Source: Candidatus Methylacidiphilales bacterium (GTDB taxonomy: Bacteria > Verrucomicrobiota > Verrucomicrobiia > Methylacidiphilales > CAZTYG01). Taken from it: 64,000 bases of DNA. The number at the start of each line of letters is the position of its first letter. The stretch's first letter is position 1. Location of the stretch: contig JANRJG010000009.1 in assembly GCA_033875315.1 (NCBI GenBank), forward strand, positions 124,001-188,000, in the 5' to 3' direction. Both the position numbers and the translations under genes were made by a program. The notes beneath the pieces were generated by a model. The model was not told the origin of the DNA and did no database searches. It saw only the letters and a program-made list of their open reading frames with translations. Below are positions 2,478 to 52,878 of the stretch, piece by piece.

Positions 2478-2482
2478 TTATT

Positions 2483-4897: not shown

Positions 4898-4987
4898 GGC
4901 GGAAGGTCTCAATTCCAAGTTTTTATAGATAACCAAGTAAAATACAAGCTTTAGTTGCCCATCGCCGGTTGGTCACAGCCCCCCAGC

Positions 4988-5926: not shown

Positions 5927-5930
5927 GGGA

Positions 5931-28428: not shown

Positions 28429-29217
28429 TCATCGGGGTATTTGCATCCGATAATCCGGCGCCTTGCCGAGGTTTTCATATTTTTTCCATAGCTTCAGAAA
28501 TTCTCCGGAAAGTTGCAGCGGAGCAGGCGGGTCTTCATCGTAAACATACTCCATCGCGCCCAGCTCGCTTTCTTCTGCAATCGGAAACCCAGTCTTGACG
28601 GAAATCCACACTTTGGTCGGAACTTTGGGCTTTTGACGGAACTTGAGTGCGATCGCTTCCAGATCGGAATACTTCGTTCCCTCCGGCATCATCGTGGGAT
28701 CAGGTGCCCGCTCCGTCCACTCGTAAAGAAAGCAGTCCTCTTTTCCGCTCTTTTGCACCTTCACAAAGTGGGCGGCGTCGATCCAGGAAATCCCTTTGAA
28801 ATCAGAGGCGGCATAATTGGGCAATTCCGCATCCTTGAAAGTTTCACCCATGTAAATCGCATCACTCCCCGGCTTTTGGTAGAGCATCACCCCATTGATC
28901 ACCCATGTTTGGCTTTTGCTCTCATCATTCCAAATTGTGGTTTCATTTAACATTTTGTTGGATTTGACCACCCGGATGCTGACAGGAACCAGCTGGGACT
29001 TCTTTCCGTTGGGATCGTTCTTTTCATCAGTTTGGGCAGCCGACTGCGGGCTGCGTTGCTTCATCCGACATTTGATGGTCCAGGCGCTTGGATCAACTGC
29101 CCGCTTGACGAATGGCGGCACGGGTCGGATCTCAGGCAATACTTCGCCAGCCACCTGGCCTTGCAATTGGAACAGCAAGCAACCTAAAACTAGCGGAAAA
29201 ATGAATGAGTTACTCAT
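28429..29217 (-). CDS. secreted protein downstream of Verru_Chthon cassette, function unknown
   Basis: About 262 residues from the ATG at 29217, overlapping the stop of cassette gene A by 8 nt, so it is translated with it; the longer frame would use a TTG at 29229. A signal peptide (about 4-25) ends near 'QVAGEV'. The mature part is hydrophilic with 'TTIWNDESKSQTWVINGVMLYQKPG', 'SWIDAAHFVKVQKSGKEDCFLYEW' and 'KVWISVKTGFPIAEESELGAMEYVYDEDPP' regions, resembling outer-membrane or lipid-carrier-type beta folds that test 'conversion' of a salt. I cannot assign a family. It looks like a fifth member of the cassette here. Confidence 0.7.
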   Translation of the reverse strand: MSNSFIFPLVLGCLLFQLQGQVAGEVLPEIRPVPPFVKRAVDPSAWTIKCRMKQRSPQSAAQTDEKNDPNGKKSQLVPVSIRVVKSNKMLNETTIWNDESKSQTWVINGVMLYQKPGSDAIYMGETFKDAELPNYAASDFKGISWIDAAHFVKVQKSGKEDCFLYEWTERAPDPTMMPEGTKYSDLEAIALKFRQKPKVPTKVWISVKTGFPIAEESELGAMEYVYDEDPPAPLQLSGEFLKLWKKYENLGKAPDYRMQIPR

Positions 29218-32200
29218 AAACAGCCTCAATTTGTTGATCTATGATTTCCCCGGTAAACCGGTCAATCGCCACATGCAGCCAATAATGCTTTTCCCCTTCC
29301 ACCACAAACCCGGCCGCCAGATCCGTGGCCTTTGATTGATAACGTCCCGATTGAACAATGAGGTCAATAAACAAATTCCAAGTTCGGGTGGTCCCGGATT
29401 CGGCCAGCGCGCGCACCACACCCTCCCTTTCGGTCTTGATGTTTCCCTGAGTGCCAGAGGGAGAGATTTCATTCCAAAGCTTGGTCACCAATTCGGACCG
29501 GTTCAGAAGAGGCCCTTTTCCAGAAGCCGAGCTTTGGGTGAAATCCACCAGTTTGCCTGCCAGTGTCGCCGCTTGAGAAGCGCTGATTGACGAACTCTGG
29601 TCATCCTTGTAGGCGGCACCCGCGAGAATAGCCTCGACCACGGGCTTTTGGCGTGTGTTCAGATTGAATCTTCCAGCACTCAATTCCCCATCTTCGATGG
29701 AGAAACAATCCAAAAGTGCCGCATCCGCACTCCTGGGTGAGAAGAAATCGAGGCTCTTGAAGGGCTGGTCGCGGAATACATAACCCAACTCCCCCACGCT
29801 CCGGAATGGGCGGTTGAGAATGATGGGCTTGCTTGCATTATTGCCGGTGATCAAGGCCCGGCCGTTGGCGTTCGAAGCCAGAGCTGCATCCCCCCAGCGG
29901 ATGACTCCATCAGGATCACGGTAAGCCACCCGCGAATGCCCCCCGGGGTCACCACTTGCGCGGTTCTCCGCAAGAGTGGCATAATTGGAATTTAATGCGG
30001 CATTAATCGAATTTGTTCCAGAGGTATTGTTGTTGTAAATGAATAGGGACGAGCCGCTGACTCCAGTGGCATCGAAACTGTTTTCCCGGAGTTGATCTCC
30101 GACATAGCCCGTGGCTGCATAATTATCGACAAAGAGATTGCCCAAATTGGTATGGTAACCCCAACTTCCATCAGGTTGAGCGACGTTAAGCACGTTCATG
30201 CTGGTTCCAAATCGATCGGTGCGGGGATCTACGCGCAGGTAATAAAAATAAGTGCCATTGGCATTCACGTTCTCTTTTTGTTGGGCATATATGTTGCTAA
30301 AGGTGTGGAAGGGATAGGAACGATAAACCCCGTCTTTCTTATAATAAAATTGAAATGAAACACCTTGGGAGTACGGTTGCAAATTGGCATAACCCAGTGG
30401 CCCGCCACTGGCGTCGTAGATCGTTTTTCCCACGTTTATTCCGATACCCTGGGTGCCCGCCAGAGGCGGCGAAGTGGCATGATAATTCAATCCATTGTTG
30501 GTTGATGTATTCGTTGTATTGAGGAGGGTGGCCCCGGAAAATCCTCCTGGACTCAAATTGACTTCCAACTGTCCGCACGTGCTCAAATCCGTGCCCGTGC
30601 CGGGCTGCGAACCAATTTGCGGTCCAAACCAACGGTAGACCAAGATATTGGCGCTTCCTGAGCCAGTGATCTTGATCTTATCGGGTATCCATGAGGAATC
30701 CGCAGTTTGGTTGATGTTCTGGTAGGGATTCCATAATTCGAAATTATACCAGCCGTAAACTGTTCTGTTGGCCGTGTCATGGCTCAGTGTATAATAAACC
30801 CGCACGGGATAAGGCAGGTTTTCCGAACCACCAACCATGGTTTGGTTGTTGAAATTAATTCCAGTTGGAAAACTATCCGGGTCCGATTGGTCGATGATGT
30901 TGGCCCCGATTTGCATGATCTGAAAGTAAGTATTAAAAGAATAGGCCCGGTTGTAGCTGGCCGAACCCGGCTCATAATCCTGCCAATAATACCATGCCCG
31001 GCCGGAATCTCTGCCCAAAGATCCAATGTTGATGGCCGCCTGAAGGGTTTCAAAGAAATCGGGATCACGTGTCGAAGGGACATCCTTGAGATATTTGATA
31101 TTAGAAACTACAGAAGTCTCATCCGGCGAAGTGTAATTCCAAGAACCGCTGGCGGGCACCCAGACCAAACCATAGTACTTCTTGATATTGGTTGCGGTTC
31201 CATTTCCGTTGTAACGTGCGTCTGCCGGTCCCAGGCTGGCACTCGGCCCGTCTGATGTCAGCCAAACCAGTGTGCTGAGGGGAAATCGCTTGGTCATAAC
31301 CGGTTTGCCTCCGGTGCTTTTCCTCACCTTGTTGAAATCTGGATTGAAATTATTTTCATTATTGGTTGTGTTGTAGGTGTAAGGATTTCCCACATAGGAG
31401 GAGTAAGTGGTGATAAGGTTCCAGAAGTCCGAGGGAAGTGTAGAGTTGGAAAATTGGATTCTCGGACGTTCCACGCTGCCCAAAACGGGTGGCGCATAAG
31501 TGGGGGCGTTTTTTTCACGACTGAAAGTGCCCAGATATTGTAAAGCGGCAGCACTCAATACATCAGTGTTGGCTTTCTGGTAATTGATCAAATCCTGGCG
31601 ACTGGTGAAAATCTGATCATTGGGGTAGGGATTGAGGAACGTATTGGTTGGCGTGGCATAGAGCCAGACAGGATTCGCAGATGCCGACGGACTGCGCCAT
31701 TGAAGAAATTCGTTGATCTTGGACAGGGAAGCCGTAAAGCCGGGAATCCGCGAGAGGTCCGCCCCGGTCATTCGCCCCCTCCGTGAGTTATCACCGGGCG
31801 ACAACCGGTTGCCGGCCACATTGATGTCCAGCAATCCCCCCTCATCATGGATTGCGTAGGCATAGCGTCCGATGGCAAATAATGGATTTGTCGGAGCCGC
31901 ATCCGTCAGCTGGGCCAATGTGGGAGCGGTTCCATTCGCCGTATCCACCGGACCCTGCCGGGTGATGAGAACCCAGTCAGGACTCTCCCAATCGGGCGGC
32001 ACGGACGAATCCCCCAGCAAGTAAGATTTATTCCAGCGATTGGCCGCAATTGAACGGCCGTTGTTGGAAGGAGCAGAGGCGCTGCATCCGGACAAAGCCC
32101 TTACGGGGCTGCTGATCGTGGAGTTGTATCCCGTTCCAGACCATAAAGGAACACCCGCTTTGCTGATTTTGACCAAATTGACATGGGAACTGGCTCCTAC

Positions 32201-32512
32201 TTTGGAGGGCATCAGATGCCGGTTGGATTTTGGCAGGTACATGTTGACGTTGCTTTGAGTGTCGACTTCCGAACCGGCTACGATCTCTTTTTTCAGGTCG
32301 CTCACAAGAGTCTGCAATGAAGTCTGGGCCAGCCATTCGGCCCTGGCTTGGCCGGCGCTGGAAAAGGCGATCCGGCGGCCGAGTGTGGCCTTGGATAGAA
32401 AGGCCAAAACCAGAATGCTCATCAACACCAACGCAGCCAGCGTCAGGATCAAGGCCGCCCCTCTCTGTCGAACACTATCCCAGGGGCGGAAAATGGATGG
32501 AATGATTTTCAT
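29210..32512 (-). CDS. Verru_Chthon cassette protein A
   Basis: A 1100-residue protein. The N-terminus has a short basic stretch, then 'RGAALILTLAALVLMSILVLAFLSKA' (about 17-42), a pseudopilin-like helix, and 'AQARAEWLAQTSLQTLVSDLKKEI' region typical of PilX/GspK-like minor pseudopilins. The long remainder is beta-rich and rich in Asn/Ser/Tyr/Gly and looks extracellular. Size, N-terminus and position after three short prepilin-like genes match the 'Verru_Chthon cassette protein A' family defined in verrucomicrobial genomes. It might be a tip or adhesive subunit of a pseudopilus assembled through a type II secretion/pilus apparatus such as the one at 105-9298; that link is inference. Confidence 0.87.
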   Translation of the reverse strand: MKIIPSIFRPWDSVRQRGAALILTLAALVLMSILVLAFLSKATLGRRIAFSSAGQARAEWLAQTSLQTLVSDLKKEIVAGSEVDTQSNVNMYLPKSNRHLMPSKVGASSHVNLVKISKAGVPLWSGTGYNSTISSPVRALSGCSASAPSNNGRSIAANRWNKSYLLGDSSVPPDWESPDWVLITRQGPVDTANGTAPTLAQLTDAAPTNPLFAIGRYAYAIHDEGGLLDINVAGNRLSPGDNSRRGRMTGADLSRIPGFTASLSKINEFLQWRSPSASANPVWLYATPTNTFLNPYPNDQIFTSRQDLINYQKANTDVLSAAALQYLGTFSREKNAPTYAPPVLGSVERPRIQFSNSTLPSDFWNLITTYSSYVGNPYTYNTTNNENNFNPDFNKVRKSTGGKPVMTKRFPLSTLVWLTSDGPSASLGPADARYNGNGTATNIKKYYGLVWVPASGSWNYTSPDETSVVSNIKYLKDVPSTRDPDFFETLQAAINIGSLGRDSGRAWYYWQDYEPGSASYNRAYSFNTYFQIMQIGANIIDQSDPDSFPTGINFNNQTMVGGSENLPYPVRVYYTLSHDTANRTVYGWYNFELWNPYQNINQTADSSWIPDKIKITGSGSANILVYRWFGPQIGSQPGTGTDLSTCGQLEVNLSPGGFSGATLLNTTNTSTNNGLNYHATSPPLAGTQGIGINVGKTIYDASGGPLGYANLQPYSQGVSFQFYYKKDGVYRSYPFHTFSNIYAQQKENVNANGTYFYYLRVDPRTDRFGTSMNVLNVAQPDGSWGYHTNLGNLFVDNYAATGYVGDQLRENSFDATGVSGSSLFIYNNNTSGTNSINAALNSNYATLAENRASGDPGGHSRVAYRDPDGVIRWGDAALASNANGRALITGNNASKPIILNRPFRSVGELGYVFRDQPFKSLDFFSPRSADAALLDCFSIEDGELSAGRFNLNTRQKPVVEAILAGAAYKDDQSSSISASQAATLAGKLVDFTQSSASGKGPLLNRSELVTKLWNEISPSGTQGNIKTEREGVVRALAESGTTRTWNLFIDLIVQSGRYQSKATDLAAGFVVEGEKHYWLHVAIDRFTGEIIDQQIEAVYE

Positions 32513-32513
32513 G

Positions 32514-33380
32514 TTAGTATAGGGAAAATCTCCGTTCCATCACCCGGATGCGTCCCACTGCTTTGATCGGGATGGATGTGGCAGAATTCAGGGCCGCGAC
32601 GTCATTGATCTTGGCAGCCCAAACAGACAAAGTTGAAGTATTGTCCGCCGCATCTGGAAATTGTTTTTCCAGATCGGCCAGTTGCACCGACGGGTTATTG
32701 AGCAGTTTGCGTGATTCACCATCGAGCGCGGCCATGGTGATGCAAAGGGTGCCCACTTTTTCTTTCCAATCCCTCCCAGTGGCGGGAAAAGAGGTGAGGA
32801 TCGTTCCCGGCGTCGTGTCCTTGGCCGAAAGATAGGAAATTTCCATACGGAAGATGGCCGCCGACAGCAGATCGAAACTGGCATCCATCGGTTGCACGGG
32901 CGCTGCCAACAGGGCGGTCGGCTCGATGAACACAAGCCCGGTTCCTCCAGCCGACGACCAAGTTGTTCCCTGCGAACAGCGCAACAGACGGTAGGGGTTG
33001 CTGCTGGTCGGATCCCCCACCCGGTAGAAAAGCTGCGAGATCCCCCTCGGACCCGAGGAAACCGCAAGGGTGGAAGGGACCGAACTGTAAAAAGAAAAGG
33101 AGTCATTCTGCTTTCCGGATACTTTTTGAAAATAGAGCGAAACATCCTCACGTCTCAGACGCGCACTCAAATCCATCCCGATCCGGTCGAGTGCCTGCCG
33201 CATTTCCGCATGGGCGTCCAAGTCCTTGTTGCTCTGGGCCAGGGCACTCGAGGTGGCTTGGAGGGCCTGGGCAATGATGACCCCTAAGATGGCGAAAACG
33301 GCCATGGCCGCCATCAACTCAATCATCGTAAACGCACGCTCCAGTGTGCGAGGGATTTTGGAAGGGCCCCGGTGTTTCAT
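32514..33380 (-). CDS. Verru_Chthon cassette protein C (prepilin-like)
   Basis: About 288 residues from the ATG at 33380; the frame extends to a TTG two codons earlier. The prepilin signal 'ERA-FTMIELMAAMAVFAILG' has Ala instead of Gly at the peptidase site, with the key Glu at +5 present. A helix (about 18-40) and a mainly beta C-terminal part follow, like PilW/GspJ pseudopilins. It begins 2 nt after gene B's stop and ends 1 nt before gene A's start, so the genes are tightly coupled. Confidence 0.85.
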   Translation of the reverse strand: MKHRGPSKIPRTLERAFTMIELMAAMAVFAILGVIIAQALQATSSALAQSNKDLDAHAEMRQALDRIGMDLSARLRREDVSLYFQKVSGKQNDSFSFYSSVPSTLAVSSGPRGISQLFYRVGDPTSSNPYRLLRCSQGTTWSSAGGTGLVFIEPTALLAAPVQPMDASFDLLSAAIFRMEISYLSAKDTTPGTILTSFPATGRDWKEKVGTLCITMAALDGESRKLLNNPSVQLADLEKQFPDAADNTSTLSVWAAKINDVAALNSATSIPIKAVGRIRVMERRFSLY

Positions 33381-33382
33381 TT

Positions 33383-33910
33383 TCAATTCCGGGGAATGGC
33401 CACCACGGTCTCAACCGACCTCAAGGGGGCTGTCGCTGCCACTTTGAAAGGAGAAGAGATCCGGATGTGATAAAAGACCGGATCACCCGCCCCGACTGCC
33501 CAGGCCTGACGGGTGACTTCCACCTTGTATCTCCCGAGAGGGTTCGTCGGCGGGGTGAGCGTTTCCAAATTTTCCCCTAGAAGCAAAGTGGCACTCGCGG
33601 CGGTTTGCGCACCCGCGGTCACGGACGCACTGTCATTCACCGCTGGCATTTGATAGAGTACGGTCTTGGCCGTCTGCGGGGACAACCTCAAGTCGGCGAT
33701 CAGGGCGTTGACTAGGTTGACGGCAATGCTTTCCTCCCTGGATTCTTTGTTCGATTGCAGTCCGACGGGCAACAAACCGACCAAAAGGACCAAGGCAAAA
33801 GCAGTAATACCCAGAGCCAGCGTGACCTCAATGAGAGAAAACCCGGGTGAAGAACCCGAGCCGTCCCGAATCCACGCCATCAAACAACGATTGTCGATTC
33901 GCTGAACCAT
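33383..33910 (-). CDS. Verru_Chthon cassette protein B (prepilin-like)
   Basis: A 175-residue pseudopilin-like protein with prepilin peptidase motif 'SPG-FSLIEVTLALGITAFALVLLV' (about 22-45), then a helix with 'ESIAVNLVNALIADLRLSP' and a short beta domain; it resembles PilV/GspI. The leader before the cleavage site is unusually long (23 residues), so Met11 (33880) may be the real start. It lies between genes D and C of the cassette, 18 nt downstream of D. Confidence 0.84.
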   Translation of the reverse strand: MVQRIDNRCLMAWIRDGSGSSPGFSLIEVTLALGITAFALVLLVGLLPVGLQSNKESREESIAVNLVNALIADLRLSPQTAKTVLYQMPAVNDSASVTAGAQTAASATLLLGENLETLTPPTNPLGRYKVEVTRQAWAVGAGDPVFYHIRISSPFKVAATAPLRSVETVVAIPRN

Positions 33911-33928
33911 GGTCTTGAACCTGGGCGA

Positions 33929-34552
33929 TCAGCGGAAGACTTGGACATTTCCGGTCAAGCCACTGATCTGAATCACAGCCACATTGGTGTTCGAACTGTT
34001 GGAGTAAGCGGGGGCCAGCCCGATCTGAATCCAACGGGAGAGTCCGTCGACCAAAGCTGAGGCGCTTCCATCAGGGGCGAACTTGATCACATAGGGGTAA
34101 TTCATCAGGCTGCCCGCAACTTGACGCTGGAGTGTGGGGATTCGACCCGTACCGCTGGTGGCGGCATCCAGCACGTCACCACCTGAGGCCGCCCCTGTGA
34201 CAGAAACGGAATTTTTGATGCTGACCCTGTTCAGAACTACCGGTTTTCCCAATGGCAATAGATTGGCCGCAGAGGTGTCGTCCTCGGCGGACTTGGAGAG
34301 CATCGAAGTCAACTGTATCCCACCCCCGGTTCCGGCAGTGTTCAGACCGACATAGACATAGGTATTGTTGGCCATGGCCAACGACCGGGCATCATCGAGT
34401 TGGGCGGTCAGGTTGCTGATCGACTGGCTAAAACCGCTGCTCTTGGAGAGAGAACTCAGGGCAGGAACGGCCAGACTGACCAGCAGCGCCATGATCGATA
34501 CCACGATTAAAAGCTCGATCAGAGTGAATCCTTGGGACTTTCGCCAATTCAT
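33929..34552 (-). CDS. Verru_Chthon cassette protein D (prepilin-like)
   Basis: About 207 residues if translated from the ATG at 34552, which gives the short leader MNWRKSQG before FTLIELLIVVSIMALLVSLAV, a classical GspH/FimT-type prepilin start. Longer starts at 34573 (ATG) or 34615 (TTG) are possible but would place the start inside or beside an operator-like palindrome. The C-terminal part ends 'ISGLTGNVQVFR', as in GspH-like pseudopilins. It is the first gene of the D-B-C-A cassette. Confidence 0.84.
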   Translation of the reverse strand: MNWRKSQGFTLIELLIVVSIMALLVSLAVPALSSLSKSSGFSQSISNLTAQLDDARSLAMANNTYVYVGLNTAGTGGGIQLTSMLSKSAEDDTSAANLLPLGKPVVLNRVSIKNSVSVTGAASGGDVLDAATSGTGRIPTLQRQVAGSLMNYPYVIKFAPDGSASALVDGLSRWIQIGLAPAYSNSSNTNVAVIQISGLTGNVQVFR

Positions 34553-34596
34553 AAATTGCCTACACCTCTTCATGAAATTTGTTTTTGAACCACTTC

Positions 34597-34614
34597 TGAC
34601 TACCTGTGTAGTCA
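34597..34614. promoter_or_regulatory. perfect palindromic operator candidate of the cassette
   Basis: TGACTAC-CTGT-GTAGTCA is an exact 7-bp inverted repeat with a 4-nt spacer, 45 nt before the preferred start of cassette gene D and about 10 nt downstream of its predicted transcription start. That is a position where a repressor would block the cassette. Confidence 0.5.
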
Positions 34615-34629
34615 AGCATCACTAATATC

Positions 34630-36899: not shown

Positions 36900-39488
36900 A
36901 TGCGACACTTCTCTTTCTTTCCATTCCTACTGACATTGTCTGCTCAACTGGTTTGGGCCGCTTCTCCACCCCCCATCCCCTACTCATCAACCTGGGCTGG
37001 CAATTCCTACGGACAAGGTGACCGGAAATGGATCCAAAACAACATCCTGGGCCTTCATGTCAGCTCCAATGGCGTGATTTACACCAACAGCTGGTGGGAT
37101 GAAGCAGGCCGGGAGAGCGGCATATACTCGGGCCAAGATGGCGAGCCCATCGGCATGCTCAAAACCCTCCACGCATCCTTCGGCGGGGGATTCGCCATCA
37201 CCGGGGACAACCGCTACATCTATTCCTCCAATTGGGACAACGTTCGGCGATGTGAACCCGATGGTCGTCCCGCTCCCTTTCCTGGAGGGCTTGGGCCCTG
37301 GGGCGACTCTTTTGGGGTATCGGATAAACCCACCGGATCGAACAAAGCCATTGGAATCAGGGGCTTGGCAATCGACCCGGAAAAAGGTTTGCTTTTTGTC
37401 TCCGAGAACAACGACAACGAAATCGAAGTCTGGAGCACTGAAAGTCTCAAGTGCCTCCGCAAATGGTCCTTCGATCGCCCAGGTCCTCTCGCCGTGGTAG
37501 AAGACGGTTCACTCTGGATCATCTCCCAAAAGGGAAATAATCAGCCCGCCCGCATTGTCCATTTCAGTGCCACGGGTCAAAAACTCGCACAGGAAATCGA
37601 GTCAGGTCCGGACTTTGACCCCACCAGCCTATGGTACGACCGGGTCGGCAAACGGCTCCTGGTCTCGGACAATGGCCCGGATCAAAACATCAAAATTTAT
37701 CTCCACTTGGAAAAGTCCCGCATGGAACCGGATGCCGTTTTTGGTTCCAGTGTCTATTCTGGTATTCCGGGGAAAATCAGTCCTACCAAATTCGGCAGCA
37801 GCGGGCTCACCGGGGTGGCCACGGATGACCAAGGGAATTATTACGTCAGTATGAACGGTGTCGGCCCCCACTCCTTCTGGCATGGTGGAGGAACTGTGCT
37901 GGAATCCTGGACAAAATCCGGAACGCTCCGGTGGCGGAAACTCGGCCTGAGCTTTGTTGACTGTGCCGATGCCGATCCCGCTTCCGACACCGGGGATAGC
38001 CTAGATATTTATGACAAATACTCGCGCTACCGGCTTGATTTAACCAAAACCACAGCGGGAACGGAATGGTCCTATGCGGGCCGCACTCTCAACCCGATCA
38101 AATATCCAAATGATCCACGTTTCATGCGTGCCCCGGATGGCTGGGATTACACCGGAGGAACCTTCGTGCGCAACATCCAGGGACGCAAATTGCTTTTCGT
38201 CCTGAGCATGCAGGCCCGCAGGATCCTCGTTTTCCGATTCAACTCAGAGACTGACGGCGAAACTGCCATCCCCTCCGGTATCTGGGAATCCCAAGTCGGA
38301 TACGATGCGGGCTATGACGGCAGCCCCAAAGGAAAAGATTTCTACTGGCGGGACTCAAATGGCAACGGAAACATCGATGCGGAGGAATTTTCAGCCGGAC
38401 CTGGCATGCCCAATCTTGGTTATGGCCTCTGGGTGGACACCAACGGAGACATCTGGTCCTGTAATCACTGGGCAGGGAGCGGAGTTGGAATCCGCCGATT
38501 GAAAATGCAAGGTTTTGATCCCCTGGGTAATCCCATCTACGACTACTCTGCTGGAAACTACACCGAGTTCCAGCGCCCGGAAGGAAGCCATGGCGAACTG
38601 CGTCGCATCGAATACAACCCGGAGAACGACACCATGCTGGTAGGAAGCACCAGTCTTCAGGACGGAGATCGTGATGCGGGCAATCGCTTTGTGAAGTATA
38701 ACAACTGGAACAAGGAAAACCGAACGGTGGCATGGACCCTTGATCCACCCATGGATAAAACCAAAATTTCATCCATGACCGTGGCCGGAGATTATTTGTT
38801 TCTGGGCTACAGTTATTTCAGCTCCAACAGCCGAGAAGGAACAATCCGCGTATTTCGTTATAGCGATGCTTCTTACGTCGGGGATATGACGCCCACTCCC
38901 GTGATCGGCTCGCTTTCGGGAACTTTCGACATCCCCTATGCCATTCGGGCCTTTAAACAAAAAAATGGAGAATACCTTGTCTTTGCCGAAGACGACCACT
39001 TTGCGAAAATCGTCATTCACCGGTGGAATCCCCAAGGAAACAACGTTGTCGACACCCTCGATAGTCTCGACAAAATTGATAAGAATCTCAGCTCGGCGGG
39101 CTGGTCCATCGATGGTGGAAACCAAGATCATTTTGGACGGGATGCGGCCAGGGCCACTCGAACCACTGACACCGCAGAGCACCTCGTCTGGAAAGTGGAT
39201 TCCCTGTCCAATTTCGCCGCCGCCATCTATTTTGATGCGCGGAACAAAATCGACGAACAAGTTGCTTTTTTCTCCTCGGTTGACGGAGAAAACTGGACCC
39301 CTGTAACCCTGGCGCGCCTGTCGGATGTCCTCAGTGGCGGCGGATGGAATGTTACCACGTTCCGCCCCCATAATGACCAGTTGCCGAGTGGAACACAGTA
39401 CCTCAAAATGCAATTCTTGCCCACAGGCACTGCTTGGAACGTCCAATTGGGTCGAATGGAACTCTTCGGAAAACGACCCCAATCCTGA
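36900..39488 (+). CDS. large secreted 'WWDEAG' family protein, shorter paralogue
   Basis: An 862-residue secreted protein with a signal peptide (about 1-20). Early landmarks shared with the 52964 gene are 'KWIQNNILGL' and 'SWWDEAG' (about 58-64). The middle has repeated short beta motifs ('GLLFVSENNDNEIEVW', 'RLLVSDNGPDQNIKIY', 'GLTGVATDDQGNYYVS') typical of NHL/SMP-30-like beta-propellers, and a calcium-binding EF-hand-like loop DSNGNGNIDAEEF (about 484-496). The C-terminal about 150 residues look like a jelly-roll carbohydrate-binding module. I know no function; binding or cleaving a polysaccharide is a guess from context. The 109 nt before it contain no clear promoter. Confidence 0.72.
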   Translation: MRHFSFFPFLLTLSAQLVWAASPPPIPYSSTWAGNSYGQGDRKWIQNNILGLHVSSNGVIYTNSWWDEAGRESGIYSGQDGEPIGMLKTLHASFGGGFAITGDNRYIYSSNWDNVRRCEPDGRPAPFPGGLGPWGDSFGVSDKPTGSNKAIGIRGLAIDPEKGLLFVSENNDNEIEVWSTESLKCLRKWSFDRPGPLAVVEDGSLWIISQKGNNQPARIVHFSATGQKLAQEIESGPDFDPTSLWYDRVGKRLLVSDNGPDQNIKIYLHLEKSRMEPDAVFGSSVYSGIPGKISPTKFGSSGLTGVATDDQGNYYVSMNGVGPHSFWHGGGTVLESWTKSGTLRWRKLGLSFVDCADADPASDTGDSLDIYDKYSRYRLDLTKTTAGTEWSYAGRTLNPIKYPNDPRFMRAPDGWDYTGGTFVRNIQGRKLLFVLSMQARRILVFRFNSETDGETAIPSGIWESQVGYDAGYDGSPKGKDFYWRDSNGNGNIDAEEFSAGPGMPNLGYGLWVDTNGDIWSCNHWAGSGVGIRRLKMQGFDPLGNPIYDYSAGNYTEFQRPEGSHGELRRIEYNPENDTMLVGSTSLQDGDRDAGNRFVKYNNWNKENRTVAWTLDPPMDKTKISSMTVAGDYLFLGYSYFSSNSREGTIRVFRYSDASYVGDMTPTPVIGSLSGTFDIPYAIRAFKQKNGEYLVFAEDDHFAKIVIHRWNPQGNNVVDTLDSLDKIDKNLSSAGWSIDGGNQDHFGRDAARATRTTDTAEHLVWKVDSLSNFAAAIYFDARNKIDEQVAFFSSVDGENWTPVTLARLSDVLSGGGWNVTTFRPHNDQLPSGTQYLKMQFLPTGTAWNVQLGRMELFGKRPQS

Positions 39489-39782: not shown

Positions 39783-42700
39783 ATGCTTAAACACACGGAA
39801 CTGACTGAATGCCGCATCCGCCAAGCGTTGGAACGCCTCCATGCAGCTTGTACCAGCGATTTCCGCGCCCTCGGTGTGGAGGCAGCCACAATACCGGGCG
39901 AACCTTTACCGTGGAGTGTGGCCGAAAAAATGGATTACAGGCCCTTTCGTGTCGGCGAGGCCTGGGGCACTTACTGGAGTACTTGGTGGTTTCGCTGCCG
40001 GGGACGGGTGCCTGCGGAGTGGGCGGAAGGTGAAGCCATCGCCCTTTTTCATTGTGGCTTTGCGGCAGGGGAAGGTTTCACCTCGGAGGCGCTCCTGTGG
40101 TCCGGTGGTCTCCCCCGGCAGGCGGTCAATGTCAATCGCATGGACTTGCCGATTAACGGAGCCCCGGGGGCGGACTTCGAATTCCACCTGGAGGCGGCAG
40201 CCAATCCGTCGCCCAACGTTCATGGATCGGCACCGCTCCTCCTACCTGGCTCGGACGCCGCCCCGGCTTTCGTGCTCAAACGCGCGGAGCTGGCCCGCTT
40301 CCACCGCGAAATCTGGCAGGCATGGTGCGACATGAAAGCCTGTGCCGATGCCCTGGAGGTTTTGCCTGCCACTTCAGCCCGCCGCGGACAGTTGCGCCAT
40401 GCCCTCAACGAGGTGGCCGATTGGATCGACTGGGAGGGCGGGGCCTGCGCCGCCCGCATCCGCTCCCAACTAACCCCCCTGCTCCAACGCCGCAATGGCG
40501 ACACCGCCCACGTGGTTAGCGCAGTCGGCCACGCCCACATCGATACCGCCTGGCTCTGGCCCCTGCGCGAGACCGTGCGCAAGTGCGCCCGCACCTTTTC
40601 CACCGCCCTCGCCTACATGAAGGAGTATCCGGATTATGTCTTTGCCTGCTCCCAGGCCGTCCAATACGCCTGGATGAAAAGGCACTACCCGGAACTTTTC
40701 CAGGATATCCGCTCCGCCGTCGCCCGGGGCCAGTGGGAACCGATCGGTTCCATGTGGGTCGAGCCCGATTGCAACCTTCCTTCCGGTGAGTCCCTGGTGA
40801 GGCAGATTGTGCATGGCAAACGCTTTTTCCGCGACGAGCTGGGTGTGGAAATGAGCAATGTGTGGATTCCCGACGTCTTCGGCTACAGTGCGGCCCTGCC
40901 GCAGATTTTCGCCCTCAGTGGCGTGGATTCCTTCCTGACCCAGAAGATTTCCTGGAACCAATTCAACAAATTCCCCCACCACACCTTCCTCTGGGAGGGA
41001 ATTGATGGCACACGCATCTTCACCCATTTCCCCCCGGCCGACACCTACAACGGCAACATGCACCCACGGGAAATCCTCCGCAGCGCGGAAAATTTCCGGG
41101 ACGGCGACCACGCCTCCCGCTCACTTTATCCCTACGGATTTGGAGACGGCGGCGGCGGCCCCACGCGCGAGATGCTTGAAATGGCGCGAAGATTCCGCGA
41201 CTTCGAGGGACTGCCTCGCTTGGAGTTGGAGGGGGTTGCCCGCTTTTTTGAGAAAGCCCGTGCCGATGCCTCCGACCTCCCCTTGTGGGTGGGCGAGTTG
41301 TATCTGGAATCCCACCGGGGCACCTACACCACCCAGGCTTGGGCCAAGCGGGGCAACCGGCTGGTTGAGCGCGCCCTGCGTGAAGCCGAATTAGCCGACG
41401 CCTTCGGATGCCCCGGCCATGACGAATCTGTCTTTGCCAAGATTGAACCCTTGGCAGTCTATGAGGCTGAGCCTTCCCACCTCCCCAGCTTGAACCAGCG
41501 TCAATTGGATCGTGCCTGGAAGCTGCTTTTGACCAACCAGTTCCACGACATCATCCCCGGCAGTTCGATCCATTGGGTCTATCAAGACAACCGGCGCGAC
41601 CTCCGTGTGGCCGGAGAGATCACCGATGCCGTGGTGGCCTCCACTTTGGGCCCTGATCTGGACACCTGTGACGCGGGGGCCTCCGTGCTGAATACCCAGG
41701 CCTTCCACCGTGCGGAAGTGGTGGATCTGCCGGACGGTACCCCGGCCTGGGTGGAAGCACCAGCCTGCGGTTGGGCTCCGCTTGAGGCAGGCACCCGTTC
41801 GTCCTGTCCAGCGGTCAGTGCACAGTGCGTGAACGATCTCTGGATACTCGACAACGACCTCATCCGGGCGGAGTTCAACCACTGCGGTCTGCTCATAAGG
41901 ATGTTCGACCATGAGCACCAGCGTGAGGTGCTGGCCCCTGGATCGCCTGCCAATTTGTTCCAATTGCACAGCGATTATCCCGTCAACTGGGATGCCTGGG
42001 ACATCGATGTTTTCCACCGTGAATCGTGCCACAATCTGGACGGCGTGGCGGAATTATCCTGGCAGGGACAGCATCCTCTTCAGTCCCGGCTTCGGATCGT
42101 GCGGAAATTCGCTGCCTCCCGGCTGGAGCAATCCGTGGTTTTGCGAGCGGGTTCGCGGCGTTTGGACTTCGAAACCACGGTGGACTGGCACGAAAACCAC
42201 AAGGTGCTCAAAGTCGCCTTCCCCGTCAACATCCGAGCCTCCCATGCCCTCCACGGCATCCAGTTCGGCTGCCTGGAGCGACCCAACCATTTCAACACTT
42301 CGTGGGATATGGCCCGCTTCGAAACCTGCGCCCACCAATGGAGCTGCCTTCACGAAGGCAACTACGGCGTCTCCGTTCTGGAGGACTGCAAATACGGAAG
42401 GGATGTCGTGGGTCATGTAATCCGCTTGACTCTGTTGCGGGCACCCACAGCCCCCGATCCGGAAGCGGACCGTGGGACGCACCAATTCACCTTCGCCCTC
42501 TATCCCCACGCGGGCGACCACCGCAAGGGGTGCGTTCCGGAGGAAGCCGCCCGCCTCAACCACCCCTTGCGTTTGTTCCGGAAACATGCGGAACTACCGG
42601 CATCCGCCTCTTTCCTCTCCATCGACCGCCCCGGCCTCCTGGTTTCCGCCCTCAAACGGGCCGACGACGGGCGCGGCCTGATTGTCCGCGTTTACGAGGC

Positions 42701-42869
42701 ACACGGCACACGTGGTCCCGGCCGCCTGCGTTTCGGGCTGCCAGTTTCGGGGGCTTGGGAATGCAACCTCCTCGAGGAAGACCAGAAACCGCTGGAGATC
42801 GACCAGGGGATTCTGGATTGCGACTGGGCTCCTTTCCAAATCCGCACCCTCCGTATTGTGCCCTCCTGA
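39783..42869 (+). CDS. GH38 alpha-mannosidase
   Basis: A 1028-residue alpha-mannosidase. The catalytic domain (about 245-560) has zinc ligands in 'GHAHIDTAWLWP' (about 248-259), the nucleophile Asp in 'WIPDVFGYSAALPQI' (about 363) and His in 'TNQFHDIIPGSSI' (about 585). The remaining C-terminal half is the beta-rich GH38 C domain. Length is typical of bacterial family members. No signal peptide, so likely cytoplasmic, trimming imported alpha-mannosides. It is followed by a secreted glycosidase gene 130 nt downstream. Confidence 0.95.
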   Translation: MLKHTELTECRIRQALERLHAACTSDFRALGVEAATIPGEPLPWSVAEKMDYRPFRVGEAWGTYWSTWWFRCRGRVPAEWAEGEAIALFHCGFAAGEGFTSEALLWSGGLPRQAVNVNRMDLPINGAPGADFEFHLEAAANPSPNVHGSAPLLLPGSDAAPAFVLKRAELARFHREIWQAWCDMKACADALEVLPATSARRGQLRHALNEVADWIDWEGGACAARIRSQLTPLLQRRNGDTAHVVSAVGHAHIDTAWLWPLRETVRKCARTFSTALAYMKEYPDYVFACSQAVQYAWMKRHYPELFQDIRSAVARGQWEPIGSMWVEPDCNLPSGESLVRQIVHGKRFFRDELGVEMSNVWIPDVFGYSAALPQIFALSGVDSFLTQKISWNQFNKFPHHTFLWEGIDGTRIFTHFPPADTYNGNMHPREILRSAENFRDGDHASRSLYPYGFGDGGGGPTREMLEMARRFRDFEGLPRLELEGVARFFEKARADASDLPLWVGELYLESHRGTYTTQAWAKRGNRLVERALREAELADAFGCPGHDESVFAKIEPLAVYEAEPSHLPSLNQRQLDRAWKLLLTNQFHDIIPGSSIHWVYQDNRRDLRVAGEITDAVVASTLGPDLDTCDAGASVLNTQAFHRAEVVDLPDGTPAWVEAPACGWAPLEAGTRSSCPAVSAQCVNDLWILDNDLIRAEFNHCGLLIRMFDHEHQREVLAPGSPANLFQLHSDYPVNWDAWDIDVFHRESCHNLDGVAELSWQGQHPLQSRLRIVRKFAASRLEQSVVLRAGSRRLDFETTVDWHENHKVLKVAFPVNIRASHALHGIQFGCLERPNHFNTSWDMARFETCAHQWSCLHEGNYGVSVLEDCKYGRDVVGHVIRLTLLRAPTAPDPEADRGTHQFTFALYPHAGDHRKGCVPEEAARLNHPLRLFRKHAELPASASFLSIDRPGLLVSALKRADDGRGLIVRVYEAHGTRGPGRLRFGLPVSGAWECNLLEEDQKPLEIDQGILDCDWAPFQIRTLRIVPS

Positions 42870-42999
42870 ATCCGGCAAGGTTTTTTCGATAGATTTGCGT
42901 GGTCTGCAAATATGGGCAAATCGTGCAATCGCTATTATTAATGGGCAGATGAACCCCCAAGTGAGTGTTTGTAGGGCTTTATTCACCCGTGTACGATTC

Positions 43000-45201
43000 A
43001 TGTTTTGCGGACTGCGCAGGGTCCTTGCCGTCTGGTCAATCCTGACCGCGCAACTTGCTGCCATCGCCTTCGCCGCACCGCTGCCTGGCCAGCGGGCGGA
43101 TGACTTTGTCGAGTCTTGTGGCATCAACATCAAACTGGACCGTGGCGTCTACTTCAATTGGACGACGGTCAAATCGCGGCTGGATGAATTGAACTTGCGC
43201 CATTACCGCGACGGACTCCGGTTGGTCGAGAACCCGACTTACAAGGCCCGCTACCAGGAACTCTGGGATCAACAGGGCATGAAACTCCTCGGCATCTGGG
43301 GTCCATGGGAAAACTTCGGTCGCCCGCCTGGCGATGCCGTGCCTACCATCAAGCTGGCAGCCCCTTTCCTCCATGCGGTAGAAGGCCCGAACGAGCCCGA
43401 CCTCTTTTGGGATGATAACTACAACTACGGCGGCCAGACCGAACGCTATGCCGAGATCCGGGCCTATCAGAATGACCTCTTCAACGCCGTCCATGGAGAC
43501 GGGCAGACTTCCGGCTTTAATGTGACCACACCCGCCATGGCCTTTGTCGAAAGTGCCCCGCGCCTCGGCTCCAACCTGCATGACTTGGTAGCCTGGCATT
43601 TTTACACCGGACCGGCCGACATGCTTGGCATGGGTGACCGACGCAACAGCACCCGTTTGGCCTATGGCAATTCCAGCAAGCCCAGCTACCTAACAGAAAC
43701 CGGATCAAATGTGGACCTCGGCAGTCCCCTGGGCATTTCCGAACGCGCCCAAATGAAAATGGTGGTGCGCGCCATGCTGCTCGGCTACCTCGGCGACGCC
43801 AAGACCTACCTGCACCAACTCATGGATGAGGGCTCGGAGGTCAACGAAAACAACCGCTGGGGCATTGTCCGCAACGACGGCACCCCGCGCCCGGCATTCA
43901 ATGCCCTGAAAAATCTGGTCAACCTGTTCAACGAAAGCACGTTCAATACCTCGAGCAAAACCTGGAGCCGCCCCGGCTTCAACCCGCCCGGACTCGACTA
44001 CTCCATCCAAGGGGGCCTCGACAAGTTTTTCCACATCCTCTTCCAGAAGGCGGACGGCACTTCTTACATCGTCACCTGGATTGAGACCTCCTCGTACAAC
44101 AAGGGAAGCAATACAAACCTCGAAACCAGCCGCCCGATGACACTCAACATCCGGGGAACGGCACGCATTGAAGCCCTGTCTTTCGACAACAACGGAAATT
44201 GGTCCACCAGTGTACTGACGGGATCGGGGTCTTCGGCCGGGTTCACCACCAGCGATTCCGTAACCGTGATAAAGATTTCGAATCTAACAGGCGATGGCGA
44301 CAACGGAATCACCAATAACATGGTTTACGAACTCGAACCACTTTCCAGTACGGGCCAACGTCTGGATGTGGCCGGGGCCGCCGACGCCAACGGGGCCAAT
44401 GTACATCTATGGACAACCAACGGGGCACCCGCCCAGGCCTGGCGCTTCACCGATGCGGGGGCCGGCTTCTATGAACTTACCCCGCAGTGCGCGACGGGGC
44501 GCCGCCTGGATGTGGCCGGTTCCGGAACGGTGGATGGCACCAATGTCCACATCTGGCAGTCCAACGGGGCGCCAGCCCAGAAGTGGCGTCCGATCCGCAT
44601 TTCCACGGACGTCTATGAATTCGAGCCGATGAACGCCCCGGGCAAGCGGTTGGATGTCGCCGGGAACGGTGCCGACGCCGGCCTCAATGTTCAGATCCGG
44701 CAAACCAACGCCGGTAATGCCCAACGCTGGCGCCTCTCCACCCCCAACAGCGGTGGAAGTATCGTCAACAATGCACTCTACGAACTGGAGCCCCAATGTG
44801 CCGCCGGTAAGCGGTTGGATGTGAATGCCTCAGCGGATGTCAATGGAGCCAACGTCCAAATTTGGCAATCCTTCGGCAACCCCGCCCAGACTTGGCGGGT
44901 GACCAGTGTGGGCAATGGTTTCTACGAACTGACACCGCAATGCGCCACAGGGCGCCGCCTGGATGTCGATGGCATGGGTTCGGCCAACGGCACCAATGTC
45001 CATATCTGGCAATCGTTTGGCAATGCCGCCCAGCGCTGGAAGCTGATTTCGGTGGGTGGAGACCTCTTCGAATTGGAGCCGGAGTGCGCCCCCGGTAAAC
45101 GTCTGGATGTCGCTGGCATGGGCTCGGCCAATGGCACCAATGTCCATATCTGGCAATCGTTTGGCAACGCCGCGCAACGATGGAAGCTCATCCGCAGATG
45201 A
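43000..45201 (+). CDS. secreted clan-A-like glycosidase with two ricin-B beta-trefoil domains
   Basis: About 733 residues from the ATG at 43000, which gives a normal signal peptide ending 'AIAFAAP'; the open frame extends far upstream, but this part is in the end of the GH38 gene. The N-terminal barrel (about 25-420) has 'VEGPNEPDLF' (acid/base Glu about 132) and 'YLTETGS' (nucleophile Glu about 233), as in GH39/GH5-like families. After a beta-sandwich region, residues about 445-733 hold six 'Q-x-W' repeats, i.e. two CBM13/ricin-type trefoils ('NVHIWQSNGAPAQKW' and relatives). It likely acts outside on a polysaccharide bound through galactose or similar sugars. The catalytic family is unsure. 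Confidence 0.85.
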   Translation: MFCGLRRVLAVWSILTAQLAAIAFAAPLPGQRADDFVESCGINIKLDRGVYFNWTTVKSRLDELNLRHYRDGLRLVENPTYKARYQELWDQQGMKLLGIWGPWENFGRPPGDAVPTIKLAAPFLHAVEGPNEPDLFWDDNYNYGGQTERYAEIRAYQNDLFNAVHGDGQTSGFNVTTPAMAFVESAPRLGSNLHDLVAWHFYTGPADMLGMGDRRNSTRLAYGNSSKPSYLTETGSNVDLGSPLGISERAQMKMVVRAMLLGYLGDAKTYLHQLMDEGSEVNENNRWGIVRNDGTPRPAFNALKNLVNLFNESTFNTSSKTWSRPGFNPPGLDYSIQGGLDKFFHILFQKADGTSYIVTWIETSSYNKGSNTNLETSRPMTLNIRGTARIEALSFDNNGNWSTSVLTGSGSSAGFTTSDSVTVIKISNLTGDGDNGITNNMVYELEPLSSTGQRLDVAGAADANGANVHLWTTNGAPAQAWRFTDAGAGFYELTPQCATGRRLDVAGSGTVDGTNVHIWQSNGAPAQKWRPIRISTDVYEFEPMNAPGKRLDVAGNGADAGLNVQIRQTNAGNAQRWRLSTPNSGGSIVNNALYELEPQCAAGKRLDVNASADVNGANVQIWQSFGNPAQTWRVTSVGNGFYELTPQCATGRRLDVDGMGSANGTNVHIWQSFGNAAQRWKLISVGGDLFELEPECAPGKRLDVAGMGSANGTNVHIWQSFGNAAQRWKLIRR

Positions 45202-46115: not shown

Positions 46116-47663
46116 TCAATACAAGGCCAGTGTAAGTCCGAGCAGGGCCAGGGTGGATCGCGTCGTGCCCGGAACGGTGATGCGGATTTCCTGGAGTGGC
46201 ACCGAAGGGTCGGGATTGACCCACTCATGGACGTAGATGCGCCCGGATTTCCCCGGGCTGCCCGCCGGATCACCCACATAGACACTGCGGGTGGACTTGG
46301 TTTCCACCGGCTCGAAACCCCACCACCAGTCCTGGATGTTGGCTGGCGACGAGGGAGAGGGCCTGGACTCCCCCAACGCACGGATCAGGATTTCCGATTC
46401 GCGCCCGCGCACCGGTACCATGCGGTAGCGTCCGAAGGGTTCACCCCCCTCCACCCATCCCGCAGCATGAAGGAAATACGCGGCACGAACCCTTGTGCGA
46501 ATGGGAATGTCGATGCCGAGGGGAAGTCCGGCCCCCACGCACGCGGTAATGTGGGGATGGGTCGAACGGAAAAGCACCATGGCCCGGGGCTGGGGCGGCA
46601 ATTCCTGCATGAGATCAAACGGAACCCCGTGGAACACATGACGCCCCGGCACGAGCGGCAACCGGTGCTCATCCCCAAACCAACCAGTCGTCCCGGTGGA
46701 AACGGCACGGTTGGCCCAAGTGGCCAAGTTCAGGCAGTGCCAGCGGGACTTCGGCAGTCGCTGGGAAAGACTGAATTTGCCCAAGACAGTGGACGGACGC
46801 ATCGGTCCCGGATCGGAGTCCTGTTTTTGCGCCTGCCGATAGATCGAGGGGCGTGAGCCCATCCACCGCTGGAAACTGTTGGAAAATGTAAAAGGGTTTT
46901 CATACCCCATGGCGTGGGCAATGGCCTCGATGGACTGGTCGGAGTATTGCAGCAGGGCGGCGGCCCGTTGCATGCGGATGGAAGTCACCTGTTGCATGGG
47001 CGTTCGACCGGTTTCCTTGACGCAGATCCGGCGCAGGTGTTCCCGGCTGAGATGCGCCATTTGGCCCAGTTCTTGGATGGACCAGTCCCGCCCCGGGTCT
47101 TTACCTACCGCCTCCCAAAGCTTCCACAAACGCACGTCACTGCGTTCTCCCTGAATCAGACGATGGGAGTAAAGAAGGATCAGTTCCGCCCAATGGTCGA
47201 TACCGGGCATTTCCGGAAGAATGTTTTGTGCCAGCAGCAGTCCTTCCACGGCCGTGCGCAGCGGGCGGGGATCAAGCCGGAAAATGCGCGGTTTCCAATG
47301 CTGGCTTTCCGGATGGGGGAAATGATCGGCTTGCAGGTGGACCCAGCAGAATTCCCAACGCCGACCCGCCACAGCCCGCATGGCTTCGGAATGTCCGGGC
47401 GGGTTGAGAAAAATCATGCCTTCCCGGAATGCGTGCCACCGCCCCTCGAACCAAATCTCCCCGCCCCCCCCCTGACATCCGAGAATGTGTCCAAAATCCG
47501 GTCGTTTGCGAACCATCTGATAGGGTTGGGCTACGTGGGAAATACCACACCATTCAATTCCCCGCTTGCGCAGGGCCTCGATCCGTCCGCCCTGAGCAAG
47601 ATTTTCCCGGCTGCGTGCGCCGATGATGTGCTTTTCAGATAGATTTGTGGGTAAAGCAACCAT
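46116..47663 (-). CDS. AraC-family regulator with extra C-terminal sugar-binding-like domain
   Basis: A 515-residue protein. Residues about 40-160 form an AraC cupin-like sensor domain. Residues about 190-280 form a double HTH ('LGQMAHLSREHLRRICVKETG' and 'IEAIAHAMGYENPFTFSNSFQRWMG' regions). Then, unusually, about 220 more residues follow (295-515) with 'RVRAAYFLHAAGWVEGG' and 'GRESEILIRALGE', like the beta-sandwich domain used to read or bind sugars in some glycosidases. AraC regulators usually end after the HTH at 280-300. The gene is divergent from a PEP-CTERM gene (62-nt gap), probably its target. Confidence 0.85.
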   Translation of the reverse strand: MVALPTNLSEKHIIGARSRENLAQGGRIEALRKRGIEWCGISHVAQPYQMVRKRPDFGHILGCQGGGGEIWFEGRWHAFREGMIFLNPPGHSEAMRAVAGRRWEFCWVHLQADHFPHPESQHWKPRIFRLDPRPLRTAVEGLLLAQNILPEMPGIDHWAELILLYSHRLIQGERSDVRLWKLWEAVGKDPGRDWSIQELGQMAHLSREHLRRICVKETGRTPMQQVTSIRMQRAAALLQYSDQSIEAIAHAMGYENPFTFSNSFQRWMGSRPSIYRQAQKQDSDPGPMRPSTVLGKFSLSQRLPKSRWHCLNLATWANRAVSTGTTGWFGDEHRLPLVPGRHVFHGVPFDLMQELPPQPRAMVLFRSTHPHITACVGAGLPLGIDIPIRTRVRAAYFLHAAGWVEGGEPFGRYRMVPVRGRESEILIRALGESRPSPSSPANIQDWWWGFEPVETKSTRSVYVGDPAGSPGKSGRIYVHEWVNPDPSVPLQEIRITVPGTTRSTLALLGLTLALY

Positions 47664-47725
47664 GGTGGTTCAGTGTGATTTCACGCATGGTGTATCCAAG
47701 CAAACAAACACGGAGAATGCCAATC

Positions 47726-48667
47726 ATGAATAAATTAATCAATCGTTCCAGCTATTCCATCCACAACCTGCCCGGGGCCCGGATCGCTGTCTGCGCAGGT
47801 CTGCTCTTATGTGCTTTTGGGTCGGTACAGGCCGCCACCCTCAGTTACTGGCGATTTGAGGACCAAGCCGATGGCGGTCAGTTGGAGGGGAACCTTGGCG
47901 GCGGCCCTTTCACCACCACTGCAGACTACTCGGGCAACGGCAATCCCCTCCGGACATTTGACGGTCCCGCAGGAGATCCAGGGATCAACACCTCCCCCAC
48001 CTTCGGCGCCGGTGGCCCCGGTGCCATCGTTCCCCAAACAGGAGCATCGAGCACCCGCTGGGCCTACTTCAATGGGACCCGGGACATCTACACCGACAGC
48101 ACTCCACTTAACTCATTCAACTTCACCGGAAACTTCACGATCGAGGCCAGCATCTACTCCGATGCCACCGGCTGGAAGACATTCCTCGGCAGGGATCAGG
48201 GAGGGACTCCAGGTCCGGGAGGGCAGTTCTTTTATCAACAGCGCGGGGACAATGGTAACCTCGGCATCGCGTTGTTGGATGGCTCCGGAACTCTCCGTGT
48301 CATCGACAGCGGCTTCAACATCGCCAGCAGCTTCACTTGGTTCAACACCGCACTGGTCAGTAGCGGCGGCACCCTCACGCTTTATCTCCAGGACAACTTG
48401 GACCAAAGTTGGGATGTTGTCGGCACCACGACCACCGCCGGTGGACTCAACAACTCGCCTGCCACATGGACGGTGGGCCGCGGTTGGTTTGGAGGTCCGA
48501 ATGATTTCTGGAGCGGCGGCATTGACGAAGTCCGCATCAGCGACACCGCCCTCACCACCGACCAATTCCTCTGGTCCTCACCCATACCCGAGCCATCCAC
48601 CTATGCCCTCTTTGGCGTCGGTGCGCTCGCGCTTTACTTGACCCGCAGAAAGCTCGTGCAGCGCTGA
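47726..48667 (+). CDS. LamG-like surface protein with PEP-CTERM sorting signal
   Basis: About 313 residues. I choose the ATG at 47726, which has GGAG 9 nt upstream, rather than the earlier in-frame Met codons. A signal peptide (about 20-37) ends at 'SVQAAT'. Residues 38-285 resemble a LamG/concanavalin-like fold ('YWRFEDQ', 'FTIEASIYSD', 'GGIDEVRISDTAL'). The C-terminus has the exosortase signal: PEPST, a hydrophobic helix and 'LTRRKLVQR'. Expected location is the cell surface or extracellular matrix after sorting by an exosortase encoded elsewhere. It is followed by a strong terminator. Confidence 0.88.
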   Translation: MNKLINRSSYSIHNLPGARIAVCAGLLLCAFGSVQAATLSYWRFEDQADGGQLEGNLGGGPFTTTADYSGNGNPLRTFDGPAGDPGINTSPTFGAGGPGAIVPQTGASSTRWAYFNGTRDIYTDSTPLNSFNFTGNFTIEASIYSDATGWKTFLGRDQGGTPGPGGQFFYQQRGDNGNLGIALLDGSGTLRVIDSGFNIASSFTWFNTALVSSGGTLTLYLQDNLDQSWDVVGTTTTAGGLNNSPATWTVGRGWFGGPNDFWSGGIDEVRISDTALTTDQFLWSSPIPEPSTYALFGVGALALYLTRRKLVQR

Positions 48668-51865: not shown

Positions 51866-52855
51866 TCAGGCCCGACGTCTGATACTGGCTCCTCCGCGCC
51901 ATCTGCCTTCAATCAGCAGGGTCCTGGCAAGAGATAGCCCTCCGCATTCCCCGCGCTGGAGCATGCCCCCCAGCAAATCCACCGCCGCTGCGCCGACAGT
52001 CTCGAGGCTTTGATAGATTCCCGCCAGCCTGCCGTGCTCGGGAATCCAGTGCAGATGGGCACAGCCCATGTCCCGGGGAACACGCACCCCGGCCTGGCCC
52101 AGCATCTGGAGGATGTCCCCATTGTCCGATAACACGGCATCCGGACGCGTGCGGCGCAACCAGGCGGTCCAGGCTTTCGCATCATGCCGGTCATAAAGCA
52201 GGGGGGCCAACCGGTTGCTCACAGGCTGGCTTCTCTGATAATACAAAAAGGCCGCCAGCATGGTGTGATTGGACCAAAGGTCATCACTCACACTCAGGTG
52301 GAGCGCGATGCGCCGGTAGCCGAACCGGGTGAGTTTCTCCAGGGCCCGCAGGACCGATTCGAACTGGTGGTTGCACACCGAGGGAAGATGCGGCAGGGCA
52401 AAACCCACCGTCACCACCGCAAAACGGTTCCATTCCGGCGCGAGCAGCATGGCGGAATCATCCAAACCGGAAACCAACAGGCCGGGAATACCCCGGGCCC
52501 GCAACTGCCGGATCAACGGCAGGGCGGTTCCAGGGGCCGCAGGAAACAATTCCAGCTCGAATCCCAATTGGCCCGCCCGCCGGCGGGCTCCTTCAAAGTG
52601 CCGGCGATAATAGGGATCCTCCCGGACCGTATCCAAAGTCGGCACCAGGTAGGCCAGATGGGAACGGTACACGGCCGTTTTGGGTGAACGCAACTGGCCC
52701 ATCAACCAACCCACCCGCGGATTCCGCCGATAACCCATCCGCTCGGCCACCGCCAGAATCCGCTCGCGTGTGGCCACCGGAATGCGGGGATGCTGACGGA
52801 GGGCCAGCGAGACCGTCGTGCAATGCACTCCCGCCTCTTTGGCGATTTGACGCAT
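51866..52855 (-). CDS. LacI-family transcriptional regulator
   Basis: About 329 residues from the ATG at 52855. The open frame allows a GTG three codons earlier, but 'MRQIAKEAGVHCTTVSLAL' is the usual LacI start. The HTH (about 1-24) and hinge helix are followed by a periplasmic-binding-like effector domain ending 'EGRWRGG'. A perfect palindrome lies 10-23 nt upstream. It is divergent from the large secreted gene at 52964 and convergent with GH43, so it likely controls one or both and itself in response to a sugar. Confidence 0.9.
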   Translation of the reverse strand: MRQIAKEAGVHCTTVSLALRQHPRIPVATRERILAVAERMGYRRNPRVGWLMGQLRSPKTAVYRSHLAYLVPTLDTVREDPYYRRHFEGARRRAGQLGFELELFPAAPGTALPLIRQLRARGIPGLLVSGLDDSAMLLAPEWNRFAVVTVGFALPHLPSVCNHQFESVLRALEKLTRFGYRRIALHLSVSDDLWSNHTMLAAFLYYQRSQPVSNRLAPLLYDRHDAKAWTAWLRRTRPDAVLSDNGDILQMLGQAGVRVPRDMGCAHLHWIPEHGRLAGIYQSLETVGAAAVDLLGGMLQRGECGGLSLARTLLIEGRWRGGASIRRRA

Positions 52856-52864
52856 CGTCCCCAC

Positions 52865-52878
52865 AGTCTACGTAGACT
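52865..52878. promoter_or_regulatory. LacI-type palindromic operator candidate
   Basis: AGTCTAC|GTAGACT is a perfect 14-bp palindrome without spacer, as for GalR/PurR/CcpA-type operators that centre on CG or AC-GT. It sits in the 108-nt divergent region between the LacI gene and the 52964 gene. Confidence 0.6.

Follow-up and report, generated by a model that had tools for sequence, protein, structure and literature searches.

What do two related, predicted secreted proteins contribute to a locus of a Candidatus Methylacidiphilales bacterium that is rich in genes for carbohydrate-active enzymes? The window analysed (64 kb, to which all coordinates refer) encodes GH13 (34763), GH38 (39783), GH2 (48729), GH43 (50702), GH31 (23579 and 57489) and GH29 (17276) enzymes together with sugar ABC transporters and LacI and AraC regulators. 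The genes in question, both on the forward strand, are WW1 (36900–39488, 862 aa) and WW2 (52964–56278, 1104 aa), which the first-pass annotation had described as two paralogues of an uncharacterized secreted family. Their paralogy was confirmed by pairwise alignment (42% identity and 659 bits over residues 1–855 of WW1 and 14–841 of WW2), and they are the only two copies of the family in the 3.15-Mb genome. WW1 does not, as had been supposed for both, exceed all its neighbours in size, since it is shorter than the GH38 product (1028 aa).

The N-terminus of WW1 (about residues 1–21; 36900–36962) reads by eye as a Sec-type signal peptide with cleavage near VWA-AS and that of WW2 looks alike, which suggests that both proteins are secreted. 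The SWWDEAG motif follows at residues 64–70 of WW1 (37089–37109; alignments and a blade HMM) and 72–78 of WW2 (53177–53197; pattern scan), and W[DE]E[AG] was not found in any other resolved ORF of the window. Pattern scans also located an EF-hand-type calcium loop at residues 485–496 of WW1, DSNGNGNIDAEE (38352–38387), and 475–486 of WW2, DGNGNGQMDAGE (54386–54421); the two loops occupy equal positions in the alignment, just as originally noted. Both proteins share a C-terminal β-sandwich module (WW1 residues 713–855, 39036–39464, by homology; WW2 about residues 697–841, 55052–55486, by alignment with WW1). Its description as a jelly roll is plausible from the predicted strands, although the module itself had no Pfam match. 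The same module ends the unrelated proteins L012–L014 and is therefore taken as a mobile accessory module. PDB matches of the C-terminal module to antibody chains are probably accidental and were discarded. WW2 carries in addition tandem CE2_N-like β-sandwich modules (about residues 855–1104; 55526–56275), where PF17996 exceeded its cut-off in two stretches (E=2e-10).

The family has been recognized before. Full-length homologues 31–34% identical to WW1 were found in Burkholderia, Caballeronia and Cupriavidus. When plasmid and megareplicon records were searched by tblastn, 16 from Burkholderiaceae contained homologues, and in 14 of these at least 80% of WW1 was covered; the best six matches had E values from 1e-79 to 2e-104, the last one spanning WW1 residues 1–712. 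In Caballeronia insecticola (L049), the homologue is flanked by a divergent GDP-mannose dehydratase gene with an adjoining reductase-type gene, by flippase and double-glycosyltransferase genes downstream and by Wzc and further glycosyltransferase genes upstream; parts of this gene set are present in Burkholderia multivorans (L048) and Cupriavidus (L051). This corresponds to the published layout of the cepacian cluster, where bceP is accompanied by the translocase gene bceQ and the bifunctional glycosyltransferase gene bceR, with bceN/bceM in divergent orientation (PMC8231446, PMC11341992, PMC3584063). The name bceP rests here on synteny, because the Burkholderia and Caballeronia records carry no gene annotation in this region. 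When the Caballeronia BceP was used as the query against 289 Verrucomicrobiota genomes, the same family was retrieved with up to 40% identity over 700 residues. From full-length homology, synteny and the literature, WW1 and WW2 are distant members of the BceP family.

The bceP gene has been listed as unknown (PMC3584063, PMC7378592), a six-bladed propeller domain has been noted for its product (PMC7378592), and BceP has been described as a β-propeller protein (PMC11341992) and as 'putatively involved in polysaccharide degradation' (PMC4432689). BceP and the WW proteins have in common the signal-like N-terminus, the W-D-E motif, the EF-hand-type loop and a homologous core of about 700 residues. 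BceP is encoded in a biosynthesis and export cluster and has nothing beyond the propeller core, whereas WW1 and WW2 lie in a degradation locus, not in an exopolysaccharide biosynthesis cluster, and bear the extra C-terminal sandwich modules.

The fold was approached with profiles. No Pfam model reached its cut-off in WW1 and CE2_N alone did so in WW2; NCBIfam gave nothing above its cut-offs for either protein. Pfam NHL (PF01436) scored 17.2 bits in WW1 against a cut-off of 20, which was exceeded by three relatives (G007, G020 and G101). A 12-member family profile searched against PDB matched NHL propellers (PknD, E=3.5e-16) and, at still lower E values, the designed Pizza proteins, the best matched stretches lying within profile positions 136–318, and the last approximately 335 residues of the core matched nothing better than E=0.14 in PDB with the family profile. 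In WW1, the matches to PknD and TRIM NHL propellers, together with an HMM built from two blades, place NHL-like blades at residues 152–345 (37353–37934), so that the propeller-like repeats seen at first reading are borne out. The blade HMM found blade-like stretches at about residues 48, 194 and 302. The first of these matches is weak (best E 0.034) and stops at residues 61–62, just before SWWDEAG, which therefore probably forms the B–C loop of the first NHL-like blade. The similarity to the PknD sensor domain and TRIM71 is one between blades and extends over a portion of the first half; in both of these a single domain has six blades, whereas the WW family adds the approximately 335 core residues and the calcium-type loop.

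A structure prediction had been suggested for finding a cleft around Trp-Trp-Asp-Glu. Two AlphaFold runs, each on three sequences, did yield models, but with pLDDT of 53.6 and 56.0 these are too poor to define an active site. Foldseek matched the low-confidence models to generic tandem propellers in PDB at TM of about 0.3, with rmsd above 10 Å for nearly all matches listed, and all claims about the active site drawn from the models were dropped. These results fit a many-bladed, probably tandem propeller, and we infer such an architecture for the family, the second half of the core, which contains the EF-hand-type loop, probably being a propeller as well.

The strict signature K-W-x-Q-N-N-I followed by SWWDEAG holds for WW1 and WW2 but not beyond them. 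A close relative (L017) has SWWDEGR, and the core of the motif throughout the family is W-x-E (W-[DE]-E), corresponding to W66 and E68 of WW1. In an alignment of 16 sequences (A7), invariant positions include N35, E68, D257, W345, D359, D405, R569, D577, D677 and Y692 (WW1 numbering), and W66 is nearly invariant. H91, conserved in 16 of 20 sequences, is the sole well-conserved histidine of that larger set. The EF-hand-type loop is kept in BceP and in most Verrucomicrobiota members and is absent from a stand-alone Paraburkholderia group, one member of which has genes for GH4, a sugar ABC transporter and a LacI-type regulator as neighbours.

The HMM search proposed for defining the spread of the family showed that the family profile matches 110 of 388 sampled Verrucomicrobiota genomes, mostly over the NHL blades only; full-length or near full-length matches occur in 11 genomes, the source genome included. 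The close relative, 68% identical to WW1, is encoded by a Verrucomicrobiaceae MAG (L017) and was the single relative obtained when genome contigs were scanned with WW1. No relative was found in viral contigs scanned with the family profile. In the tree, WW1 groups with the L017 protein (100/100) and WW2 stands beside this pair (94/95), which indicates that the duplication predates the split between the host and the L017 organism. The BceP sequences group with other Verrucomicrobiota members (90/90), several branches being long. This suggests transfer between the phyla, its direction not being given by the branching. Distant relatives of about 1300 aa with FlgD-Ig, NHL blades and an EF-hand region, sometimes also with CBM9 or F5/8 modules, are encoded by many Verrucomicrobiota (L028–L047).

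Genes for glycoside hydrolases or sulfatases were present in 6 of 10 scanned family neighbourhoods (L055 was left out of the set), a raw count to be read against the commonness of glycoside hydrolases in Verrucomicrobiota. They comprise sulfatases (L052, L053), GH20 (L054), GH127, a GH51-type arabinofuranosidase and a GDSL esterase (L057), a GH9-like enzyme (L060) and GH42 (L061), and the family member at L060 is itself fused to a GxGYxYP putative glycoside hydrolase domain. The scanned neighbours in the other four cases (L017, L056, L058 and L059) included neither a glycoside hydrolase nor a sulfatase.

Within the window, WW2 is indeed divergent from a LacI-family regulator gene (51866–52864, reverse strand), from which it is separated by 99 bp. 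The regulator is 33% identical over 338 aa to a LacI protein encoded near the L017 homologue. A sequence scan of the intergenic region revealed a perfect 14-bp palindrome, AGTCTACGTAGACT (52865–52878), directly upstream of the LacI gene. It is a possible, perhaps autoregulatory, LacI operator, but this reading is weak since the 64 kb contain six such palindromes against about four expected by chance. No palindrome was found upstream of WW1.

Other genes of the window were also inspected. Among four adjacent genes on the reverse strand (29213–34615), prokaryotic N-terminal methylation motifs occur in two, and one codes for an 1100-aa protein without a Pfam match; three of the four also adjoin a WWDEAG homologue in the same-order genome G078 (L059:2964–7616), a conserved linkage. 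A TTG-start ORF (42682–45198, forward) encodes C-terminal ricin-type lectin repeats preceded by about 540 residues without a Pfam match; its true start is probably downstream, as the start overlaps the GH38 gene. The gene at 47645–48664 (forward) encodes a LamG-domain protein that bears a PEP-CTERM sorting signal, which suggests exosortase-type surface sorting in the host. At 108–8662 (reverse), two genes for secretins lie close to one for a PilM-like protein; they make up a cluster for type II secretion or a type IV pilus in which the secretin is duplicated.

The earlier judgement that the family has no assigned activity and is probably glycan-related stands, given the enzyme-rich surroundings and the fact that no characterized enzyme family covering the WWDEAG segment was found in Pfam, in NCBIfam or with the family profiles against PDB. 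Likewise, no characterized hydrolase or lyase family matched the WW family in sequence, family profiles included. Three observations lead us to favour a secreted polysaccharide-active protein, namely that the family is linked in two phyla to polysaccharide genes, that accessory modules of the carbohydrate type are present and that a glutamate is invariant; we infer that the ligand of WW1 and WW2 is a glycan. The chances that the two proteins are polysaccharide-cleaving enzymes, lyases or hydrolases, appear about even to us. Their substrate would be an acidic or mannose-containing heteropolysaccharide, which they would bind and most likely cut either extracellularly or in the periplasm. On the functional face would lie the W-[DE]-E loop of blade one, the C-terminal sandwich modules of the WW1/WW2 branch would be of the glycan-binding type, and the GH38, GH43, GH2, GH31 and GH29 enzymes of the locus would then finish the released fragments. 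In Burkholderia, the same scaffold inside the cepacian cluster might trim or release the polymer, so that the BceP family would serve both exopolysaccharide production and polysaccharide breakdown. More tentatively, and with a probability that we put at about one-third, BceP and the WWDEAG proteins would all be calcium-dependent tandem-propeller lyases or hydrolases of a new family, their active site being centred on W-[DE]-E and H91, and would be employed by Burkholderia in making cepacian and by Verrucomicrobiota in degrading similar polymers.

Tandem propellers that cleave polysaccharides are exemplified by the GH74-like hydrolases, in which the interface cleft between the two propellers carries two acids. 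Such tandem propellers are the Foldseek neighbours of the WW models, at the low TM and pLDDT given above. Propeller lyases of families PL24, PL25 and PL42 (formerly GH145) act on uronic acid/rhamnose polymers and use a histidine pair with arginine and tyrosine (PMC8377490). Cepacian likewise contains glucuronic acid and rhamnose (PMC4432689), and the WW family may work like a lyase of this type. Among the PDB matches listed for the family profiles, there were no PL24, PL25 or PL42 entries, and the catalytic pair of PL24 and PL42 has no counterpart, H91 alone among the histidines being well conserved, although R569 and Y692 are conserved. The WW family was not filed as a member of PL24, PL25 or PL42 because both the sequence match and the histidine pair are missing.

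A lyase or hydrolase is more likely than a binder. The proteins could nevertheless be non-catalytic polysaccharide binders or assembly factors in which calcium stabilizes the fold, BceP acting as a periplasmic scaffold in cepacian export and the Verrucomicrobiota proteins capturing substrate at the surface; we consider this rather unlikely, also when both versions are taken jointly. NHL propellers are often binding scaffolds, the best profile matches are NHL binding domains and designed propellers, the second half of the WW core has no enzyme match, and the C-terminus carries modules of the binding type. The authors of the study of Paraburkholderia phytofirmans PsJN, too, class BcePQR as mostly structural, in EPS transport (PMC11341992). 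However, an invariant glutamate in an exposed loop position exceeds the needs of a pure scaffold, and an unsystematic look at the locus revealed no obvious partners for surface capture.

Two further explanations are much less probable. A small-molecule propeller enzyme of the SMP-30/gluconolactonase kind (a lactonase or a sugar-oxidizing enzyme) would act on released sugars and not on the polymer; Paraburkholderia homologues are automatically annotated as SMP-30/gluconolactonase/LRE, and SGL (PF08450) exceeds its cut-off in the most distant relatives, the divergent G239 copies. But SGL does not reach its cut-off in any of the other scanned full-length members and is absent from WW1 and WW2 at E<=1; the WW core, about twice as large as an SMP-30 domain, also differs from it in architecture. 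We give equally little credence to a structural or adhesive surface protein without a role in glycan metabolism that is carried along in the locus. Propeller-plus-sandwich architectures are known in surface proteins as well, and the wider set of NHL proteins of about 1300 aa with FlgD-Ig and CBM9 in the phylum would agree with it, but family members lie repeatedly beside glycan genes, and do so in two phyla, which argues against this explanation.

Among the genes of the cepacian cluster, bceP is one of those still listed without a function, and its family is now tied to degradation loci in a second phylum. The link between BceP and the WW proteins points to specific residues and substrates for experiments. 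Should the family prove to cleave polymer, it would represent a new family of carbohydrate-active enzymes.
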